Shown in pieces: positions 1 through 55,800 of a DNA stretch of 64,000 nt. The notes beneath the pieces were generated by a model. It saw nothing but the letters and a program-made list of their open reading frames with translations, did no database searches and had not been told where the DNA came from. The position numbers and the translations under genes are program-made. Each line of letters opens with the position of its first letter. Position 1 is the stretch's first letter. This stretch comes from Haloferula luteola (GTDB taxonomy: Bacteria; Verrucomicrobiota; Verrucomicrobiia; Verrucomicrobiales; Akkermansiaceae): positions 170,510 through 234,509 of the forward strand of contig NZ_JACHFD010000006.1 of NCBI RefSeq assembly GCF_014201715.1, read 5' to 3'.

Positions 1-666
1 CTGGTTCGCATACGAATCACCCACACTTGAGAATTCAAATCTTGCCACGGTGTTCCAACTGGTCCGCCACCCCTTCACTTCCAGAGTTTCTCCCGGCGAA
101 ATCACATATCCCCGCTTGGAAAACGCAGCGGGTTTGCCGTCGATCACATCAAGACCATCGACACTCAACACCACCTCCACCCGGCTCCGACACCGATTCT
201 TGACCGTGATCGAATAACTCCGACCCGGCTTCCCTTCCACGAACGTCTCCTGACCTTGCCGGTAGCAAGGCCAATAGCCGCCCCAACCCTTGATCCCCCA
301 TTCCACCATCCCTCCTGCCACCTGCATCACGGAAGCGGTCTTCCACCGATATCCCGCCATCGCTTTGATCCCTTCCGCATCATTGTAGAAAACCTTCCCC
401 GTCCCCGCAGGTTGGCGCGCGCTCCTTACGAACGAACCTTTTTGCAAAGGATCCCTCACCCTCTCGCCAAAACCCGTCGCCAAACCCGGACGATCTTCAG
501 GGCGTTCAAGCTGAGCATCTCGATCCACTCCCACTCTCGGCACAGGAGAACTCAATGCCACCTCAGGTGGAGATGAGGGCACAACCGTCGTGCACGCCGC
601 CAGAACCCAGACTCCCGCTCCAGCCAGCACTCTTCTCCAACTCCATACTTCCGCAAATCCATTCAT
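1..666 (-). CDS. Putative conserved lipoprotein, C-terminus cut by the window edge
   Basis: The reading frame is open from an ATG at 666 down to base 1, so 222 residues are visible and the end is missing. The N-terminus is a lipoprotein signal: arginines, a hydrophobic stretch, then LAAC with Cys25 as the likely lipidated residue. After a Pro/Ser-rich linker comes a compact domain from about residue 110 with GWGGYWPCY, NRCRSRVEVVLSVDGLDV and KRGYVISPGETLEV. It looks like a beta-rich conserved domain that I cannot name. The start lies 2 bp from a dyad (669-684) that recurs before the divergent blaI gene, so BlaI-type repression is likely. The existence of the gene is well supported; its function is unknown. 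Confidence 0.72.
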   Translation of the reverse strand, partial: MNGFAEVWSWRRVLAGAGVWVLAACTTVVPSSPPEVALSSPVPRVGVDRDAQLERPEDRPGLATGFGERVRDPLQKGSFVRSARQPAGTGKVFYNDAEGIKAMAGYRWKTASVMQVAGGMVEWGIKGWGGYWPCYRQGQETFVEGKPGRSYSITVKNRCRSRVEVVLSVDGLDVIDGKPAAFSKRGYVISPGETLEVKGWRTSWNTVARFEFSSVGDSYANQ

Positions 667-668
667 GA

Positions 669-684
669 TGCTGGAAAACCAGCA
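669..684. promoter_or_regulatory. Candidate BlaI operator, copy 1
   Basis: This is a perfect dyad, TGCTGG-AAAA-CCAGCA. It is the copy nearest the lipoprotein gene and differs at one position from the reverse complement of copy 2. Confidence 0.55.
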
Positions 685-712
685 CTTCACAACCTCCGAG
701 TCAAGCCGTGAA

Positions 713-728
713 TGCTGTTTTTCCAGCA
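713..728. promoter_or_regulatory. Candidate BlaI operator, copy 2
   Basis: The reverse complement reads TGCTGGAAAAACAGCA, one mismatch from copy 1. Copy 3 starts 23 bp further on, about two helical turns, which fits binding on one DNA face. Confidence 0.55.
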
Positions 729-735
729 TAAGAAT

Positions 736-751
736 TGCAGTTTTTCCAGCA
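736..751. promoter_or_regulatory. Candidate BlaI operator, copy 3
   Basis: The reverse complement reads TGCTGGAAAAACTGCA, one mismatch from copy 2. It ends 19 bp before the blaI start codon, so binding here would give autorepression. Confidence 0.5.
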
Positions 752-770
752 CCCGCTAGGATGAGAGCCG

Positions 771-1154
771 ATGAGCGAAGCGAAGGACAGCCGTCTGGCC
801 CGGCGAGAACGCCAGGTCATGGACATCCTCTATCGATTGGGAGAAGCCAGCGCCCAAGAAATCCTCGAAGCCATTCCAGACCCGCCGACTTACTCGGCGG
901 TTCGCGCCCTGCTCTCCACCATGGTCGAGAAGAACCTTCTTACCCATCGCAAGGACTCCCGCCGCTATCTCTACCGACCTGCCATCTCCGAAACGAAGGC
1001 CAAACGGTCCGCCCTCAAAACACTCCTCACCACCTTCTTCGAGGGGCGGCCTGAGAAACTGGTCGCCGCCCTTCTCGATCCCTCGGACCAACAACTTCCT
1101 CCTGAAGAGATCGAGAAAATCCGCCGCCTCATCGACGAGCCCGACCCAAAATGA
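771..1154 (+). CDS. BlaI/MecI-family transcriptional repressor
   Basis: The protein has 127 residues, the normal size of the family. The winged helix lies in the first ~75 residues (RRERQVMDILYRLGEASAQE, then YSAVRALLSTMVEKNLL and the wing HRKDSRRYLYRP), followed by a helical dimerization half (KTLLTTFFEGRPEKLVAALL). Family members bind dyads as dimers and are inactivated by a partner M56 protease; here the M56 gene overlaps the stop by 4 bp (ATGA). Three dyads precede the start. The targets are probably this operon and the divergent lipoprotein gene. No beta-lactamase gene is nearby, so a resistance role should not be assumed. Confidence 0.93.
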   Translation: MSEAKDSRLARRERQVMDILYRLGEASAQEILEAIPDPPTYSAVRALLSTMVEKNLLTHRKDSRRYLYRPAISETKAKRSALKTLLTTFFEGRPEKLVAALLDPSDQQLPPEEIEKIRRLIDEPDPK

Positions 1155-2026
1155 TCGCTTCCACACTGGCATTTTCCCTCATCGCCAGCGTGCTGGTCGC
1201 GATCTTGGGACGCCGCGAACCACGATTGAGTGGGGTCGCCCTGGGTCTGCTCCTCGCCATGCCTTGGCTCACCCTCCTGCCCAAGTGGGACATCCTTCCG
1301 CCCACGCCAGGCGCCCGTCCCTCGGTCTCCCTCACTCCCATTCTCCTCGTGGGAACCTTTCTTCTGCTCCTCCGACTTGCCTTTTCCATGCATGCACTCG
1401 CCCGCTTGAAGAAGAGCTCCTTGCTACTCAAAAGCCTCGTCCTCGCAAACGGCCTTCAAGTCGAACTCCGAACCTGCTCCACCCTCTCCGGTCCCGTGGC
1501 TGCAGGTGTATTCCGGCCCGTCATCTTGGTTCCTACCGCCTGGAATGCGTGGACCCCCACTCAGCAGCAAATCGTTCTGGCCCATGAACTGGCCCACCTC
1601 CAACGCCGCGATCCCCTATGGCGACTCATCGCGGAAATGACCTGTGCCGTCCATTGGTTCAACCCCCTCGTCTGGTGGCTGGCACGCTGTCAACGCCACG
1701 CCGCAGAATTTGCCTGCGATGCCAGCGTCGTCCATTCCGGTATTCCAGCGAGAACCTATGCGTCCGTCCTGTGCGATCTCGCCGCCGCCCGGCCCACTCC
1801 CGCCCCCGCAGTTGCGCTTGCCGAATCCAGCCTTCTTCACGGTCGTGTGCAGCGCCTACTTCACCCACCTCATGGAGTTCCGCCACGCGCTACCGCGCTC
1901 CTTCTCGCGGCCATCGGGCTCCTCGCCGTCGGCATCGCGATCATCCGTCCAGCGGAACCGCTGGCATCCCAGATCGCGCCCGAAGCCACTCTACGCCTTG
2001 CGGCCGATCCCTTTCCCGGAAACTGA
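1151..2026 (+). CDS. M56-family (BlaR1-like) membrane zinc metallopeptidase
   Basis: The protein has 291 residues, about half of BlaR1. It has hydrophobic segments near residues 2-20, 27-46 and 64-82 and a last one around 250-275. The zinc motif is HELAH (His145, Glu146, His149), and EFACDAS downstream supplies the usual third ligand region. In the family, signal sensing triggers cleavage of the cognate BlaI. The large penicillin-binding sensor domain of BlaR1 is absent: after the last membrane segment only about 20 residues remain. The signal is therefore unlikely to be a beta-lactam bound by this protein. It overlaps blaI, so the pair is translationally coupled. Confidence 0.9.
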   Translation: MIASTLAFSLIASVLVAILGRREPRLSGVALGLLLAMPWLTLLPKWDILPPTPGARPSVSLTPILLVGTFLLLLRLAFSMHALARLKKSSLLLKSLVLANGLQVELRTCSTLSGPVAAGVFRPVILVPTAWNAWTPTQQQIVLAHELAHLQRRDPLWRLIAEMTCAVHWFNPLVWWLARCQRHAAEFACDASVVHSGIPARTYASVLCDLAAARPTPAPAVALAESSLLHGRVQRLLHPPHGVPPRATALLLAAIGLLAVGIAIIRPAEPLASQIAPEATLRLAADPFPGN

Positions 2027-2030
2027 TCCC

Positions 2031-3059
2031 TCACTCAGCCGCCACCAACCGGCAACCCCCGACCCCTTGATTTCCCCCCACTGACGTCACGACCGCTTGG
2101 CGATAGACCCCTTGCTGAAGCGCATCCACCGCCGCCACCAATTGAATCGCAGCCGAGGCCCCCATCGCCTCACCAAGCATCAGCCGGGTGGAAATCCGCG
2201 GACCGCACCATGGCACCGAATCCTCCGCAGCATCCAATCGGGGAACTCCTACTCGACCATCGGCCCACACCGTGAAGCCATCATCCACAGCACTCAATTG
2301 CGACCACAGCCGCTTCAGCGCCCGCGTCCGATCCGGCTCCAAAGCATAGCTCACCCCATCCGGCACTGCTGCCAACCGGGGACCCGCTCCGTCTTTCTCC
2401 AGCAGCACCGCTGCGGCCCCTTCTCCGGGTAAAATCCGCCGATCATAGTAGCCCAGAGCTTCGGCACTCAGCCAGTCCGCCTCCTCTGGTGCCACCACCA
2501 GCACGGCATCCGCATCTCCTCGCTCCAACCATTCGGCCGCGAGATCAAGTGCCAGGAAAACCTCCGCACCATCACCAATGATCGTATCATTCGGCGCCGT
2601 GCACTGGACCATCGCCGAAAGGTGGCTCGCCGGTGCATTGTAGACCGTCTCCGGAAACAAAATCGGGCTCGCCACCGCAGGATCCGCCAGCACCTCACCG
2701 TAAAAGCGATTCGAGTAGTTCACGCAGCCATTCATCATCGAGCAGATCACGCCGAGCCGCAGCTGGCCCGCCTCGATTTCCGCTTTCCGTTCAGGGCCGA
2801 GCGCTTCAAGCGCCGCCGCCGCTGCGAATTTCCCCACCGAACTGGCCCGCCGCAATCGCGCCAACTTCGGGAGCAACGCCCGATCCGCGAGCGCTGGCAC
2901 CCTCGCCATCGGCGTGCGGATCACATCTCCCGCCGAAGTCGTCCGCTCCAGAAACTCCGGAACCACCGCCTCATCACGAGCCAGGAACTCCCGCAGCGCC
3001 GCAAGCCCCCACCCCGCAGGCGACACCACGCCGACACCACCAATCGTCAGAGCCTTCAT
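2031..3059 (-). CDS. Catalytically degenerate beta-ketoacyl synthase (chain-length-factor-like)
   Basis: The protein has 342 residues with a thiolase/ketosynthase fold, opening with ITGG-type MKALTIGGVGVVSPAGWG and ending VTSVGGNQGVGGCRLV. Where an active enzyme has the NACAS nucleophile it has NAPAS, with Pro143 in place of Cys. The HGTGT motif is missing, and the GHLLGGAGA-type histidine motif has become GEAMGASAA. It therefore cannot condense by the normal Cys-His-His mechanism. Its gene overlaps the stop of the preceding active ketosynthase by 4 bp, the arrangement seen for KS-CLF heterodimers in type II polyketide and aryl-polyene pathways. I infer a partner subunit that shapes the active-site pocket. 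Confidence 0.82.
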   Translation of the reverse strand: MKALTIGGVGVVSPAGWGLAALREFLARDEAVVPEFLERTTSAGDVIRTPMARVPALADRALLPKLARLRRASSVGKFAAAAALEALGPERKAEIEAGQLRLGVICSMMNGCVNYSNRFYGEVLADPAVASPILFPETVYNAPASHLSAMVQCTAPNDTIIGDGAEVFLALDLAAEWLERGDADAVLVVAPEEADWLSAEALGYYDRRILPGEGAAAVLLEKDGAGPRLAAVPDGVSYALEPDRTRALKRLWSQLSAVDDGFTVWADGRVGVPRLDAAEDSVPWCGPRISTRLMLGEAMGASAAIQLVAAVDALQQGVYRQAVVTSVGGNQGVGGCRLVAAE

Positions 3060-4297
3060 CGCTCCACCTCCCTCCCCAAAATCAACGTCGCATTCGCGCC
3101 GCCGAACCCGAACGAATTCGTCAACGCATACCGCACCTCCGCCTCGCGAGGCTCACGCACCAAATCAAACTTCACCACCGGATCCACTTCTCGGACATTC
3201 ACATTGGCAGGCAACCACTGCCCCTGGAGAGCCATCAGGCAAATCACCGCCTCCACCGCCCCGGCTCCTCCAAGCAAGTGCCCAATCGACGACTTCGTCG
3301 AACTCAGACGAACCTCGGAAACCGACTCGCCCGCCCAACGCGCCACGGCATGGGCCTCCGCAACATCGTTCAAAGGAGTGCCCGTGCCGTGAGAATTGAT
3401 GTAGTCAATTTGCTCCGGCTCCAATCCCGCCATGCGGGTGGCCGCCGTCATCGTGATCAAGGCCGCGTCTCCATCGGGATGCGGCTGCGTCAAATGATGA
3501 ATGTCCGTCGCCGCACCGTACCCCAGCAACGTTCCCAAAACCTGCGCACCGCGAGCTCGAGCCGACTCAAGACTCTCCACCACCACAAATCCCGCACCCT
3601 CCCCAATCGCCAAACCATCGCGCTGCGCATCAAACGGCCGGGGAATTCCACTCGGCGACAAGGCCTGCAAAGAATCGAAACCCGCAAACACCATCTGCGC
3701 CAAACCATCATACCCCCCCGCCAACACACGTTCCGCCCGACCCTCGCGCACCAAATGAAACGCCTGACCGATCGCATTCGCCCCAGAAGCACATGCATTC
3801 GATATGATTCTCAACGGTCCCCCAATCCCCAGACTCGCCATCATCCGCGTCATCTGACGTTGCGGCTGATACGTCTCCACCCGGCTCCATTGACCCCGTC
3901 GGGTGCCCTCAAGCGCCGCTCGATAATAATCCTCACCAATCGGCATCGCTCCCGCCGAAGTGCCCACACATACCGGCATCTCCCCACGAATCCCAGCTTG
4001 GCTCAATGCCTCCCGAGCAGCCGCCCACGCCATCCGGGTACCTCGGTCCCAACGCTCCCACTCCCGACCCATCCCACTCCGACCCGTCGGCTGCTCCGGC
4101 ATCGCCGCCTGCCCGGCACTGCCAACCCGTTGACGCGACACATCAAACAGATCCACCTCTCGAAAGGCCGTGCGCCCCGCCCGAAAGCCATCCGCATTTT
4201 CGACGAATCCCGCACCCATGGAGGTATGAATGCCCGCACCCGTGATCACCACAGGTCGGGTCGAGGAGAGGCGGGGCTGATGGGGAAGGTAAGCCAC
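3056..4297 (-). CDS. Beta-ketoacyl-ACP synthase II-like ketosynthase
   Basis: The protein has 413 residues, the full FabF length. All catalytic residues are present: Cys169 in NACASGANAIG, His303 in NSHGTGTPLND and His340 in TKSSIGHLLGGAGA. The C-terminal glycine loop NSFGFGGANATLIL is intact. Such enzymes perform decarboxylative condensation of malonyl-ACP with an acyl primer. It is the first gene of a two-gene minus-strand unit with the degenerate ketosynthase, and it diverges from the AMP-ligase gene across 69 bp. Together with the dehydratase and acyltransferase nearby, this points to a specialised acyl chain, not to primary fatty-acid synthesis. No acyl carrier protein is visible here. 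Confidence 0.92.
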   Translation of the reverse strand: MAYLPHQPRLSSTRPVVITGAGIHTSMGAGFVENADGFRAGRTAFREVDLFDVSRQRVGSAGQAAMPEQPTGRSGMGREWERWDRGTRMAWAAAREALSQAGIRGEMPVCVGTSAGAMPIGEDYYRAALEGTRRGQWSRVETYQPQRQMTRMMASLGIGGPLRIISNACASGANAIGQAFHLVREGRAERVLAGGYDGLAQMVFAGFDSLQALSPSGIPRPFDAQRDGLAIGEGAGFVVVESLESARARGAQVLGTLLGYGAATDIHHLTQPHPDGDAALITMTAATRMAGLEPEQIDYINSHGTGTPLNDVAEAHAVARWAGESVSEVRLSSTKSSIGHLLGGAGAVEAVICLMALQGQWLPANVNVREVDPVVKFDLVREPREAEVRYALTNSFGFGGANATLILGREVER

Positions 4298-4366
4298 GAT
4301 TTCCGAGTTTTCTCACTGGCCCAATGCCAGCTGCGGCAGCTAGGCAACCCCCATCGAACTTGTCAA

Positions 4367-5623
4367 ATGCTGCTTCCCCGCTGGCACCAGACCCTCACCC
4401 ATTTCCGGGATCAGCCCGCCATTTTCCATGGCGAGGCCGTGCTGACTTTCGCCGATCTCGCCGCCGCCCTCGCCACCCAACCCCTGGCCAGCGCACCCGT
4501 TCTCGCCACCGGATCGGCCCTCGAGATCGTCCTCGCCACCCTGCGCGGATGGCGGGATGGCCAGCCTGTCGTCCCCGTTGAACGCAAAGACGGAGCCTTG
4601 CCCGAACTCGATTCCCTGCCCTCACAGGTCGCCCACGTCAAACTCACTCCAGGCAACGACGGCCGCCCCCGGGGCGTCTGGTTCACCGCCGAGCAATTGG
4701 CTGCCGATGCCGACGCCCTCGTCGAAGGCATGGGACTCGCCCGCCACCTGCCCAACCTCGCCACCGTCTCCCTGACCCATTCCTACGGCTACTCCTCCAT
4801 CATCCTCCCCCTGCTCCTGCACGGAATCCCCCTGCAAACCGTCGAAGTTCCTTTTCCCGCCGTCGTCGCGGCAGCCTGGAAAGCCCACCCTCAAGTCGTC
4901 CTCCCCGCCGTGCCCTCGATGTGGCGGGCGTGGCATCGTTCCGGAATCCTTGAGCAGGCACCCATCGCCCTCGCCCTCTCCGCCGGTGCCCCCCTCGCCC
5001 TCGAACTCGAACAAAGCATCTGGGATCGCCATCAACTCAAACTCCGGAATTTTTACGGCACCTCCGAAGCGGGCGGCATCTCCTTCGATACCAGCTCTCA
5101 GCCCCGCAGCCATGCAGGGGATCTCGGAACCCCACTGCCCGGAGTCCAAGTCACCCTGTCCGACGACGATCGATTCCACATCACCAGCCCTTCCGTCGCC
5201 ATCGGCTACGATCATCCACGCCCCGGAGAAAAACTCGGCAACGGCAACTTCCTCACCCCCGACCACGGGCACCTCACCTCGGGGCGATTGATCCTCGATG
5301 CCCGCGGTGGCGAACACATCAACGTCGCCGGCCGCAAACTCGGCCCCGGCCGCATCGAAGGCGCCCTTCAGGCCACCGGCCTCACCTCTCACGTTCGGGT
5401 CTTCGGACTGCCCAGCTCCGATCCCGAACGCGTCGAAGAAGTCGCCGCACTCGTCCCCTCTCACACCGACGTGGCCGCCCTCCGGCGCGCCGTTTCCAGC
5501 GCCCTCGCGGGCTGGGAAATCCCGCGACATTGGTTCACCAGCGATCAGCCGAGCGATTTCTCACTCACCCGGGCAGCTCTCCGCGCACGTCACCACCCCG
5601 AAACCGGCAGCGATCCGACCTGA
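4367..5623 (+). CDS. AMP-binding acyl/aryl ligase-like protein
   Basis: The protein has 418 residues, shorter than typical ligases (about 500) because the N-terminal part is reduced. The ANL fold shows in the short P-loop-like LTPGNDGRPRGVW, the A5 motif NFYGTSEAGG, GDLGTPLPGV, and the A7-A8 region GHLTSGRL then INVAGRKLGPGRIEGAL. The final A10 region reads SDFSLTRAALRA and lacks the usual Gly-Lys, so the adenylation lysine seems lost. Ligases of this kind activate an acid and load it on an ACP or CoA. In aryl-polyene loci they activate the aromatic starter. I chose the ATG at 4367 because domain similarity begins there. The frame stays open far upstream, but that part lies opposite the ketosynthase genes. 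Confidence 0.85.
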   Translation: MLLPRWHQTLTHFRDQPAIFHGEAVLTFADLAAALATQPLASAPVLATGSALEIVLATLRGWRDGQPVVPVERKDGALPELDSLPSQVAHVKLTPGNDGRPRGVWFTAEQLAADADALVEGMGLARHLPNLATVSLTHSYGYSSIILPLLLHGIPLQTVEVPFPAVVAAAWKAHPQVVLPAVPSMWRAWHRSGILEQAPIALALSAGAPLALELEQSIWDRHQLKLRNFYGTSEAGGISFDTSSQPRSHAGDLGTPLPGVQVTLSDDDRFHITSPSVAIGYDHPRPGEKLGNGNFLTPDHGHLTSGRLILDARGGEHINVAGRKLGPGRIEGALQATGLTSHVRVFGLPSSDPERVEEVAALVPSHTDVAALRRAVSSALAGWEIPRHWFTSDQPSDFSLTRAALRARHHPETGSDPT

Positions 5624-5637
5624 TCTCCTCCGGCATC

Positions 5638-6060
5638 TCATGGCGGGGTTCGCCCCGCCAACTGCACCTTCGCTGTCGCCAGCACCCGGTCTCCCACCTT
5701 CACCTCCCCCGCGACCTGAATCATCGGTCCGAGCCGACCTTCGACCACCGCCGAAATCTCCAGCACCTCCCCCGGGACCGCCGCTCCAAGAATTTTGGCC
5801 CCACGAATCCCCGTCAGCAACAAACCCTCCACCTCCGCCTGCTCAGGGTCACTTTGCGCAGCCACCCCACCGAGCTGAGCAATCGCCTCCACCAAAATCA
5901 CTCCCGGCATCACCGGATTCCCCGGAAAATGCCCCGCCAAGAAGGCTTCATCACCGCGCACCGTGTAGCGACCTCGCGCCGATTTCCCCCCATCCAGCTC
6001 CACCAAGCTGTCAACAAAACGAAACTCCGGACCGTGGGGAAGGGCATCAAGCGCAGACAT
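5638..6060 (-). CDS. FabZ-like 3-hydroxyacyl-ACP dehydratase (hotdog fold)
   Basis: The protein has 140 residues, the usual FabZ length. The catalytic segment is HFPGNPVMPGVILVEAIAQL with the active His and Glu in the standard spacing. The N-terminus LPHGPEFRFVDSLVELDGG matches the normal start of the family. FabZ enzymes dehydrate 3-hydroxyacyl-ACP to trans-2-enoyl-ACP. The frame could begin up to 150 bp further upstream, but that extra stretch has no family likeness. It converges with the AMP-ligase gene with a 14-bp gap and belongs functionally to the same acyl-chain cluster. Confidence 0.85.
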   Translation of the reverse strand: MSALDALPHGPEFRFVDSLVELDGGKSARGRYTVRGDEAFLAGHFPGNPVMPGVILVEAIAQLGGVAAQSDPEQAEVEGLLLTGIRGAKILGAAVPGEVLEISAVVEGRLGPMIQVAGEVKVGDRVLATAKVQLAGRTPP

Positions 6061-6208
6061 GACCGAGCCATGACCAAGAATCGCCACCGGGGAAATCCCT
6101 AACTTTTCCCCCGTCCTCAAGCCTCTCAACCTCATCCGGCTGCCAAAAACGTCAGAATCCATGCTTGGCCCCGGGCAACGGCACACATTATGTTTGAAAC
6201 GCTCCGCC

Positions 6209-7042
6209 ATGCCTCCCGCTGACCCCTCCGTTTTGACCGATGCGAGCGCCCTCCCTGCGCCGGCACGGTCGTGGCTTTGGTGGCCTCTTGAAACCTTGGC
6301 CGCGACGGGAGCCTTCGCCTATTGGGGCATCTTTGGGCTGCTCTTCACGCTGGCAGCCCTGCCCCTCTGCCTCGCCCTCCCCAAACGAAAGGCCGAGGTC
6401 CTCGGACGCTCCTTGCTTCATCGCGCATTCCGCATTTTTGTCCGCTACCTGCGACTGACCGGGCTCGTCTATGCCGATTTGGACTCCCTCAAACCGCTTC
6501 GCCAGCGGCGCGATCCCGTCATCATTGCGCCCAATCACACCTCCCTATGGGACGCCGTGTTCGTGATCGCCTGCCTGCCCCAGCCGATCTGCATCATGAA
6601 GGAATCCATCCTCTGCAATCCCTTCCTGGGCGGCGGAGCCCGGCTGGCAGGCTACATCCCGAACGGATCTTCCTCCCGACTCGTCCGCGAGGCTTCGGAA
6701 GCCCTCACCCGTGGCGGCCAGCTGCTACTCTTTCCCGAAGGCACCCGAACCCGTCACGATGCCCGCTGGATCAACCCTCTCAAAGGTGGATGCGCCCTCA
6801 TCGCCCGCCACGCCCAAGTGCCCGTGCTGCCCATCTACATCCGCAGCAACACCCGCTTTCTTGAAAAAGGATGGCCCCTCTGGAAACGCCCCGAGTTCCC
6901 CATCCGCATGAGTTTTGAACTGGGTGAGGAGCAAAGCCCCCAGGAGGGAGAATCCGCCAAGGACTTCACCCAACGCCTCGAAGCCGAATACCAGGCCCAC
7001 CTTTCCCGCCCCCACAAGCTGCGGCGGCAGGTTGCAGAATGA
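6209..7042 (+). CDS. PlsC-like 1-acylglycerol-3-phosphate acyltransferase family protein
   Basis: The protein has 277 residues with one or two N-terminal membrane helices (about residues 22-55). The acyltransferase motifs are NHTSLWD (the HX4D catalytic pair), GYIPNGSSSRL (block II) and FPEGTRTR (block III). These enzymes move an acyl chain from ACP or CoA to a glycerophosphate-type or other hydroxyl acceptor at the inner membrane. In this context it could attach the product of the neighbouring ketosynthase cluster to a lipid anchor, as the acyltransferases of aryl-polyene loci do; that role is inferred. A plain phospholipid role is also possible. The chosen ATG follows the last upstream ATG of the frame and precedes the first recognisable segment. 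Confidence 0.85.
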   Translation: MPPADPSVLTDASALPAPARSWLWWPLETLAATGAFAYWGIFGLLFTLAALPLCLALPKRKAEVLGRSLLHRAFRIFVRYLRLTGLVYADLDSLKPLRQRRDPVIIAPNHTSLWDAVFVIACLPQPICIMKESILCNPFLGGGARLAGYIPNGSSSRLVREASEALTRGGQLLLFPEGTRTRHDARWINPLKGGCALIARHAQVPVLPIYIRSNTRFLEKGWPLWKRPEFPIRMSFELGEEQSPQEGESAKDFTQRLEAEYQAHLSRPHKLRRQVAE

Positions 7043-52885: not shown

Positions 52886-55800
52886 CACCACTTCGTCCCA
52901 ACTCTCCGCCATTCGGATCTCGTCGTGCGCCACCGTCCGGCCATTGACGAATGCTCCAAATGATATGCCATTGAACGACAAATCGGCCACCGCACTGAGG
53001 GTGAGCGTCGGCACCATCGGTTCGTCCGACCCCTCGGGATTCCGATAAACCCGGATGTCATCCGCACCCGGTTGGAAATCGATCCGAACCACATAAAGAT
53101 TCACCTCGGTGGTCCCCACACCCAAGGCCGTCTGAACGGAGTTGGGTGCCCTCAAGGCGACCTGACCACCGTCTTGATCATTGCCAATCCCGGCAATCCG
53201 CCCGCTGTCTCCCAGATCATCCCGGTGAAACTCAAACTCATAGAACTTGCTCGTTCCATCCGGTTGCTGAAGGAAACTCACATACAGAGTCGTGCCGTCC
53301 GCGCCAATCCGACCATTCGCATCCACATAGCCAGCCTGGCCAAAGGGTCCCGTGCTCGAAACATCTAAGCGGCGACCCACTCGGCACCCATTGGGCAACT
53401 TTGCGTGATTCCCCGTCGCCGATTCCAACAACTCCACTGGTGATCCTTCTGGTGCCCTCAAGCTGCCCTCCACCACATCCGCACTGCCTCCGTTCACCGT
53501 CACCCACGGCCCTTCCCAACCAAAGCCTGCCGCCCCACCCGAGAGACTCCCCAGTCCGACAGGATTCTCAAAACCCTCGTAGGCCAAAGCTCCCGATGCA
53601 TGGGCGGGAGCGGTCGCTTGCAGAGAAACCTCATCCGCCAAAAACCGCGAATCCCCCGCCGACATCAGCACCAGAAATACCTCCGTTCCCAGATCTTCGG
53701 GTCCTAAAGTCAGCTGAGCCTCCAATCGCCGCCATCCCTCTTCCTGAGTGAGGGACGCTTCATCCGCCTCTCCGATTTGACTCCCCCCACTTCCCCCGGA
53801 CCCTACGGTGACTCCTTTTCGGAATGACACGGAAACCACCCCCTCCGATCCTTCCTCCAATCTCAGCAACGAAGCACCTGCTTCAAGCGTCCGCCCCAGA
53901 TCCCCCAGACCAACCCAACCCAACGATTGCACCAACCCGACGGTTTCACCCCCTGGGCTGAGTGCGACCGCTCCCGTGCCGAAAAACGCAGGATACCCTT
54001 CCTCTTCTGGGAAGGCATCTCCCGTGTCGTCCAAGAACCGCACCTCTCCTCCATTTCCTCCAAACACTTCCCAACCGAAAGCCTCCGTTCGGGAATCCAT
54101 TTCCGCCGGCAAACCCTCCTCCAATCCCGGATTTCTCAAACTCGATGACATCGGCCCATCTTCGCTCCACGAAGAATCCAAACTCCGCCATCTCCCCTGT
54201 CCCAACCTGGCGACTCCACCTTCAGCCCGCAGCGATGGGCTCAGCGACCCATTCTCCGGCGCAATATAGTGACTCCCGAATTGCTCCCCCTCAAACACGA
54301 AGGCCTCCAAAGTCAATCGGTCCAACAACACGCGCAACCTCACCTTCCCCTCGCGGAGCGTCACCGGACCATCCACCAAGGAAGCCCAATCTCCCGCTTC
54401 ATTCACAAAGGAAAGACTCCGACTCGCGGCCGTGTAGCGGATCGATGTCCCCGGCAAATCCAACACCACGGCATCCGCCGTACCCGGCTCCCATTCGAGG
54501 GAGAGATCGACCATCCTCGTTCCCGGCATTTCCGCCAAGGCATTCTCCCCAGGTGCCAAGTCCCCCGGCCCCACCGTCAGTTCCTCACCCACCAACGCAT
54601 CCAACTCTGGTACCGGCCAGGCGCACAATCGCACTCCTTCCGAAGTCGTCTTCAGCGAAAGGTCACAAGGAATCGACATCTGCTGGTTAAAGGGCACCCC
54701 ATACCGCGCCGAAGAATCCGGACCACCCGACATCCATCCCATCTGCACCACTCTTCCAGCCGGAGCCTGATTGAACGATTGGGCAGCATAAAAATTCCCA
54801 TGGCTGGCATGCAGCGGACCCACCTCCGTCGTGAACGTCGTCCCATCAAAGGAACCAATTTCGTAGTCAAAGCTGGCGTCGTAAATCACCCACTTCGTTT
54901 CCTCGCGATCTCCGTCCACGGCCAAGGGAACCAAATCCATGCATTCAAACGCCCATGATCGCTCCAGATCGGATGCGAACGTCCAATCCGTGAGATTCGG
55001 CGAAGTCAACAACCGCACCCTACCTGGGTTCAACTGGACCCAAAGAACCATCACCCACCGCTGACTCGGTGCATGCCAGAAGACCTTGGGATCGCGCTCT
55101 CCCGCATCCAGACCCTGATTCGGCACCACCGCCCTCCCATGGTTCCAGTAGTTCCAATGCACTCCTCCATCCGTGCTGTAAGCCATCGCCTGATAGAAGG
55201 GCTCACGGGTCCCCGCGAATGTATAGAAAGCCACCAACGTCTTCCGGCTTCCCACTTGAACACCCAAATGATTGAACTCATCCACCACAGCACTTCCCGA
55301 GTAGATCGTCCCATACTGGCCATCGACTTGATAGGGTAACAGCGCATGGGGATGCTGACGCCAATGGATCATGTCCGGGCTCGTCGCATGCCCCCAGCTC
55401 ATATTACCCCAGCCCGTTCCCACGGGATTGTGCTGGAAAAACAAATGGTAACTCTCTCCATCGAACACCATCCCGTTCGGATCGTTAAGCCAGTTCCGGC
55501 GCGAACTGAAGTGAAACTGAGGCCGCCATTCCTGATCATATCCCACAGGGGGAAGATCCACGACCGGCAAACCGGAAGTGATCTCGAACCCACCATCCGC
55601 CCCCGGCAAAGGCTCATCACTTCCCCGAAAATCGTCCACATTGATGTGCCCCCACCCCCCCGTCGCCTCATCAAACACCACAATCCGCGCCGTCTTTCCC
55701 AGCCACTCCTGCGCATCAAAACTCACCGGGACCATGCACTCACTCTGATGACCCGTCGCCATCACTCGCTCTTCGCCCTCGCACCACAATTTCACTCCCA

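Follow-up and report, generated by a model that had tools for sequence, protein, structure and literature searches.

Three near-identical 16-bp dyads between blaI and a divergently transcribed lipoprotein gene of Haloferula luteola most likely (with a probability of roughly 0.8) represent operators of the adjacent BlaI repressor, with the lipoprotein gene and the blaI–M56 operon as the targets and a repressor/protease logic of control. The array, its placement, its targets, and a C-terminal tail common to the M56 protease and the lipoprotein emerged from the comparison of related genomes, which strongly supports the operator and its targets; the binding of BlaI, its cleavage, and the direction of control are what we infer from the protein family.

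According to the proposed mechanism, BlaI dimers residing on the dyads O1 and O2 would switch off the lipoprotein promoter (with O1 lying over its −10/start region), and dimers on O2 and O3 would switch off the blaI–M56 promoter (with O3 lying over the −35 element). Hence, the target and the regulator would be co-repressed. The M56 protein, a BlaR1-type membrane metalloprotease, would then lift the repression by cleaving BlaI.

The probable operator array and its targets

The array occupies the intergenic region flanked by blaI (771–1154, plus strand) and the lipoprotein gene (start at 666, minus strand) in the window, i.e., the whole 64-kb stretch of DNA analysed. O1 (669–684) reads TGCTGGTTTTCCAGCA on the minus strand and TGCTGGAAAACCAGCA on the plus strand and possesses perfect 6-bp arms; O2 (713–728, plus strand, TGCTGTTTTTCCAGCA) is an upstream element common to both promoters; O3 (736–751, plus strand, TGCAGTTTTTCCAGCA) covers the presumed −35 element of blaI (735–740) together with the spacer, and its degenerate left arm may reflect the demands of this −35 element. 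The original prediction gave the coordinates and sequences of the three 16-mers exactly, and the gene coordinates bear out the position it assigned to them; comparison on a single strand likewise confirmed the claim of single-base differences between successive dyads. Matches to the consensus at up to three mismatches numbered four in the 64 kb, a count attained by none of 100 shuffles; the fourth, at 55431, has three mismatches. The array is the sole place in the window with three copies inside 90 bp. Genome-wide pattern searches at up to one mismatch returned O1–O3 as the only promoter-placed matches in the same genome, the other four being located inside long open frames. As these four near matches are all coding, control by the array in this organism is apparently confined to the two divergent units.

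The presumed −35 element of the lipoprotein promoter, TTGACT (699–704, minus strand), is situated between O1 and O2; of the 68 dyad-bearing lipoprotein orthologues of Verrucomicrobiota, 66 have a TTGAC at a distance of 17–21 nt upstream from O1. O1, located 2 nt away from the start codon of the lipoprotein gene, covers both the presumed −10 region and the start; with O2, it makes up the operator pair that belongs to the lipoprotein promoter, a feature overlooked previously. On the opposite side, the likely blaI promoter is TTGCAG-16-TAGGAT, with TTGCAG (735–740) overlapped by O3 and with the presumed −10 element TAGGAT (757–762, plus strand) read from the sequence and missed by the consensus scan. 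The automatic sigma-70 consensus scan found no promoter, the divergent promoter lacking a consensus −10; hence the promoter elements are supported by conservation. The start codons follow O1 at a distance of 0–9 nt (664–684 of the window, minus strand, and the orthologues), leaving scarcely any room for a ribosome-binding site, so the lipoprotein mRNAs may be nearly leaderless.

The array is recurrent across the Verrucomicrobiales (Haloferula, Luteolibacter, Roseibacillus, and Rubritalea). Matches to the repressor were detected in 46 of the 57 relatives, with close orthologues in about half of those. In the oriented orthologous loci, O1 abuts the divergent start codon, the conserved O2 is located about 42–45 bp off, and O3, where kept (in many loci), a further 23 bp away. 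Orthologues of the lipoprotein were located independently in 33 of the 57 relatives and in 80 named genome contigs, which place the group in the same four genera and other Verrucomicrobiales; given the overlap of the two sets and the kinship of the genomes, the counts do not represent independent events. A dyad matching at least 13 of the 16 positions was found beside the lipoprotein start in 68 of 71 Verrucomicrobiota loci (consensus TGCTGNTTTTYYAGCA), in none of the seven myxobacterial loci, and in 4 of 1560 shuffles.

The strongest argument comes from the loci where the two units are unlinked. Three genomes (G024, G026, and G027) have the lipoprotein gene on a contig other than that of blaI, and the dyads are kept at both genes, those on the blaI side being weaker in G027; at the unlinked lipoprotein promoters, two dyads flank a TTGAC. 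This suggests genuine targeting of the lipoprotein gene as opposed to mere adjacency. The check put forward in the original prediction, conservation of the dyads upstream of orthologous genes, thus gave a positive result for blaI and for the lipoprotein genes, linked or not.

A search of the relatives for paired dyads, plus single strict dyads, revealed further target genes. In 11 congeners, a second type of promoter precedes small lipoproteins with the signature FSPFNNKLIDVKGF: most of these promoters harbour two dyads (a lone strict dyad is present in one congener), and in most congeners a dyad touches or almost touches the start codon. Paired dyads also precede genes of DUF4349 lipoproteins in two other genera. 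The FSPFNNKLIDVKGF lipoproteins are multi-copy in the genus (L095, L098, L099, L142, L151–L155), and typically one copy per genome carries the two-dyad promoter, the remaining copies being devoid of it. The H. luteola genome possesses the second family as well, with no dyad around its best-matching member (L178). Overall, the lipoprotein proposed earlier as the likely output is sustained by the dyads at its linked and unlinked genes, but the proposal was incomplete, the regulon of the relatives including other lipoproteins.

The protease, the lipoprotein, and their common tail

The gene of the M56 metalloprotease (1151–2026, plus strand, 291 aa; PF05569, E 2.1e-27) overlaps blaI by 4 bp. Its product displays the M56 domain with the HExxH motif (residues 145–149, invariant in the M56 alignment) and the BlaR1 fold with four transmembrane segments, predicted at residues 2–22, 24–40, 62–89, and 245–264. 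The best structural match of the model (mean pLDDT 88) was BlaR1 of S. aureus (8exs; Z 16.9 over 221 residues, rmsd 4.2); the score against the NCBIfam model blaR1_generic was 53.6 bits at a cut-off of 400. The C-terminal penicillin-binding sensor domain is absent, as anticipated by the original prediction: only 27 residues follow the last transmembrane segment. Still, reading the protease as sensor-less is incomplete, since a conserved tail that copies the C-terminus of the lipoprotein stands in place of the missing domain.

This tail (1943–2023, plus strand) comprises 27 aa, is presumably periplasmic as judged by the BlaR1 topology, and ends in RLAADPFPGN. Its end, E-x-x-x-R-L-x-A-D/N-P-F-P-G-N, ranks among the best-conserved segments of the M56 sequence, with R282, A285, F288, and P289 invariant, as are the catalytic residues. 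In the lipoprotein alignment, R256, A259, and F262 are invariant at the C-terminus with the identical spacing; the paired tails from one genome, EVNNRLEADPFAKAP vs. EEIRTRLNADPFPGN, exemplify the likeness. The H. luteola lipoprotein tail itself has drifted (to ARAF, within RKDARAF), retaining R-x-x-A-x-x-F. By-eye inspection for co-variation between the two tails revealed none, and both tails were modelled with middling confidence.

The pattern R-x-x-A-x-x-F occurs within the last 25 residues of all 26 M56 proteins and all 28 lipoproteins, compared with 9 of 1903 other ORFs (after three of 12 hits had been set aside as further lipoprotein or M56 genes), a count that is descriptive and no blind test, the motif having been picked after both alignments had been viewed. 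The motif in its narrower D/N-P-F-P/A form was then sought across four complete genomes (about 24.5 Mb): it closes the M56 protein in 4/4 and the lipoprotein in 3/4, the exception being the drifted H. luteola tail; no other ORF longer than 100 aa ends in it. None of the inspected M56 paralogues from other BlaI pairs ends in the motif, some of these loci stopping before the gene end.

The lipoprotein gene (1–666, minus strand, with about 134 bp more beyond the left edge of the window) encodes 266 aa with the lipobox AAC (C25) and the C-terminus RKDARAFASEL. Its sequence had no match in Pfam, PHROG, NCBIfam, or PDB, and residues 61–240 were modelled confidently as a beta-rich domain of no recognisable family. 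Weak matches to Ig-like and MATH domains were returned by the fold search, and both folds were dropped, since the best Z of 5.3 is too weak to name a fold. Relatives of the lipoprotein occur in Klebsiella (a hypothetical lipoprotein by annotation, encoded between speA and speB), Burkholderia, and Sorangium/Minicystis (L331:2659-3384, L330:2878-3654, L292, L300, L282); those from Klebsiella and Burkholderia matched no curated family of Pfam or NCBIfam. A small gene directly downstream of the lipoprotein gene (L038:9366-9932, minus strand) encodes N-terminal cysteine pairs and a later lipobox-like LAAC, and has no Pfam family above the cut-off.

In a reduced genome (G023, L344), blaI has been kept, the M56 gene has decayed, and the lipoprotein gene was not found; this joint loss is consistent with the protease and the lipoprotein working together. 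In a different family of the class, the same repressor/protease pair is again encoded near the lipoprotein gene, with the tails ADPFPGER and ANPFPGG.

Taking the place of the beta-lactam-binding domain of BlaR1, the tail copies the C-terminal peptide of the very lipoprotein under control; hence the input would most likely be how far the binding partner of that peptide is occupied. The candidate binders include the lipoprotein's own domain and a shared envelope partner, and the outcome would be a homeostatic loop for the lipoprotein. The input is thus probably read through the common tail; that the tail itself is the sensor is a speculative suggestion prompted by the sequence likeness. Tentatively, and at somewhat below even odds, M56 may use mimicry to sense the product of its target gene, i.e., its tail and the lipoprotein C-terminal peptide would compete for one site. 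Free sites, arising when the functional lipoprotein is scarce or the envelope is damaged, would turn the protease on, so that BlaI would be cleaved and the lipoprotein synthesis would rise.

Alternatively, the common motif could serve as a degron, or as a docking peptide, recognised by some third protein of the envelope, such as a periplasmic protease of the PDZ type or a complex of the outer membrane; M56 and the lipoprotein would then both be mere clients, and the M56 signal would be something else. This account, less likely than not, draws on the lipoproteins that carry the tail without an adjacent tail-bearing M56 in Burkholderia (RRNANPFPGN), the myxococcotal Sorangium and Minicystis (ANPFPGQFATPP), and another member of the Verrucomicrobial class (QQANPFPGN); among the two long matches inspected in myxobacteria, there was no M56 relative with the tail. 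The tail would accordingly play a role independent of M56, and this distribution calls for either a widespread partner or binding of the tail to the domain of its own protein. However, a general client tag is disfavoured by the lack of other long ORFs ending in the motif in the four genomes, and among the M56 proteins seen, the motif resides only on that encoded beside the O1–O3-type operator. The simplest history suggested by this distribution is that the lipoprotein had the tail first and the protease acquired a copy.

Assignment of the dyads to BlaI

The repressor (127 aa; PF03965, E 1.9e-27) carries the Penicillinase_R winged-helix domain, scoring 96.3 bits at a cut-off of 22.6. Among the solved relatives, MecI/BlaI were at the top with MecI as the best match; in the alignment, the H. 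luteola protein is two residues shorter before the recognition helix, whose region is presumed to be PTYSAVRALL (residues 39–48). The top NCBIfam match, CopY/TcrY, remained below its cut-off (52.5 vs. 121.95 bits), and the repressor contains no cysteines and, hence, no Cys-X-Cys metal motif.

It could be argued that a different transcription factor binds the dyads and BlaI is a mere neighbour, the dyad motif being devoid of the classical BlaI/CopY core TACANNTGTA (PMC7253601). The original prediction was right that the consensus is unlike TACA-TGTA, and this core is indeed missing from TGCTGNTTTTYYAGCA. Still, the diversity of BlaI motifs is already known in principle from C. thermocellum (PMC8457756), so an unusual motif is by itself no surprise. 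Furthermore, the palindrome appears to change in step with the recognition-helix region across the clades. Thus, BlaI proteins with P-S/T-YSAVRA in this region go with TGCT..AGCA palindromes, the NYSA clade with TGTAGATTTTTCTACA (TGTAGA..TCTACA) or near variants, and a HYSAVRS protein with TGCGGAATTTTCCGCA (TGCGGA..TCCGCA); paralogous subfamilies feature TGTGTA..TACACA, AACTAA..TTAGTT, GGCCAA..TTGGCC, and others. The dyads are also retained by blaI orthologues that no longer have the lipoprotein gene beside them (L023, L026), and paired autoregulatory dyads are typical of BlaI proteins (PMC8457756), making a foreign binder very improbable.

Natural variants of the recognition helix with matching palindromes are found at the loci L163, L332–L337, and L342–L346. 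The upstream regions of the two other BlaI proteins of the H. luteola genome have no comparable dyad. The literature searched contained no report on an operator of the O1–O3 type and none on Verrucomicrobial BlaI targets. As inverted repeats close to start codons, the dyads resemble RNA hairpins, terminators, or the trace of a mobile element, but such an origin has a negligible chance given their constant placement with respect to both TTGAC and the start codon, their recurrence at unlinked lipoprotein promoters, and the terminator scan and Rfam search, which gave no terminator-like site over the dyads and no Rfam match there.

Comparison with known systems

BlaI/M56 pairs are common in environmental bacteria and are mostly named after antibiotic resistance. 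The statement that no beta-lactamase is encoded nearby holds for the main genes scanned, from about −1.2 kb to +8.3 kb: these neighbours are genes of nucleotide and fatty-acid metabolism, with neither a beta-lactamase nor a PBP2a/PBP target among them, and the target is a lipoprotein without a known domain. Beside carA, the region 2031–7042 of the window encodes a pair of ketoacyl synthases together with a FabA-like dehydratase, close to an acyltransferase; the set recalls a small gene cluster of the fatty-acid or aryl-polyene type.

Overall, the regulator is of a common type, but both its output and the well-supported clue to its input are unusual; it does not constitute a new class of systems and stands above a routine member of its family. 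It offers a widespread, well-defined BlaI/M56 pair with an envelope-lipoprotein output and a legible operator. The natural repressor–operator pairs could give a recognition code for the BlaI family, and the common tail represents a concrete, quickly testable answer to the question of what a sensor-less M56 protease detects. The tail also points, tentatively, to a novel means by which the condition of the envelope could be sensed.

A parallel is provided by BlaI_0696 and BlaI_1845 of Clostridium thermocellum, which likewise have small autoregulatory regulons with dyads in pairs and a motif that departs from TACA-TGTA; their motif (GTCTAT repeats) and targets differ from those of the Haloferula array (PMC8457756). 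The CopY/CopR copper repressors belong to the same repressor superfamily, whereas here the CXC metal motif is lacking and the operator falls outside RNYKACANNTGTMRNY. In envelope stress sensing of the DegS/RseA type, the C-terminal peptide of an envelope protein is read via a membrane protease; this is an analogy only, the proteins being unrelated and the peptide residing here on the protease itself. Finally, the staphylococcal BlaI/BlaR1 and MecI/MecR1 systems share with the Haloferula locus the PF03965 repressor, the adjacent M56 protein with the BlaR1 fold and topology, the divergent target, and operators (putative ones here) at both promoters; unlike them, the Haloferula system combines an M56 protein free of the beta-lactam-binding domain with a different operator sequence and lipoproteins as the targets.
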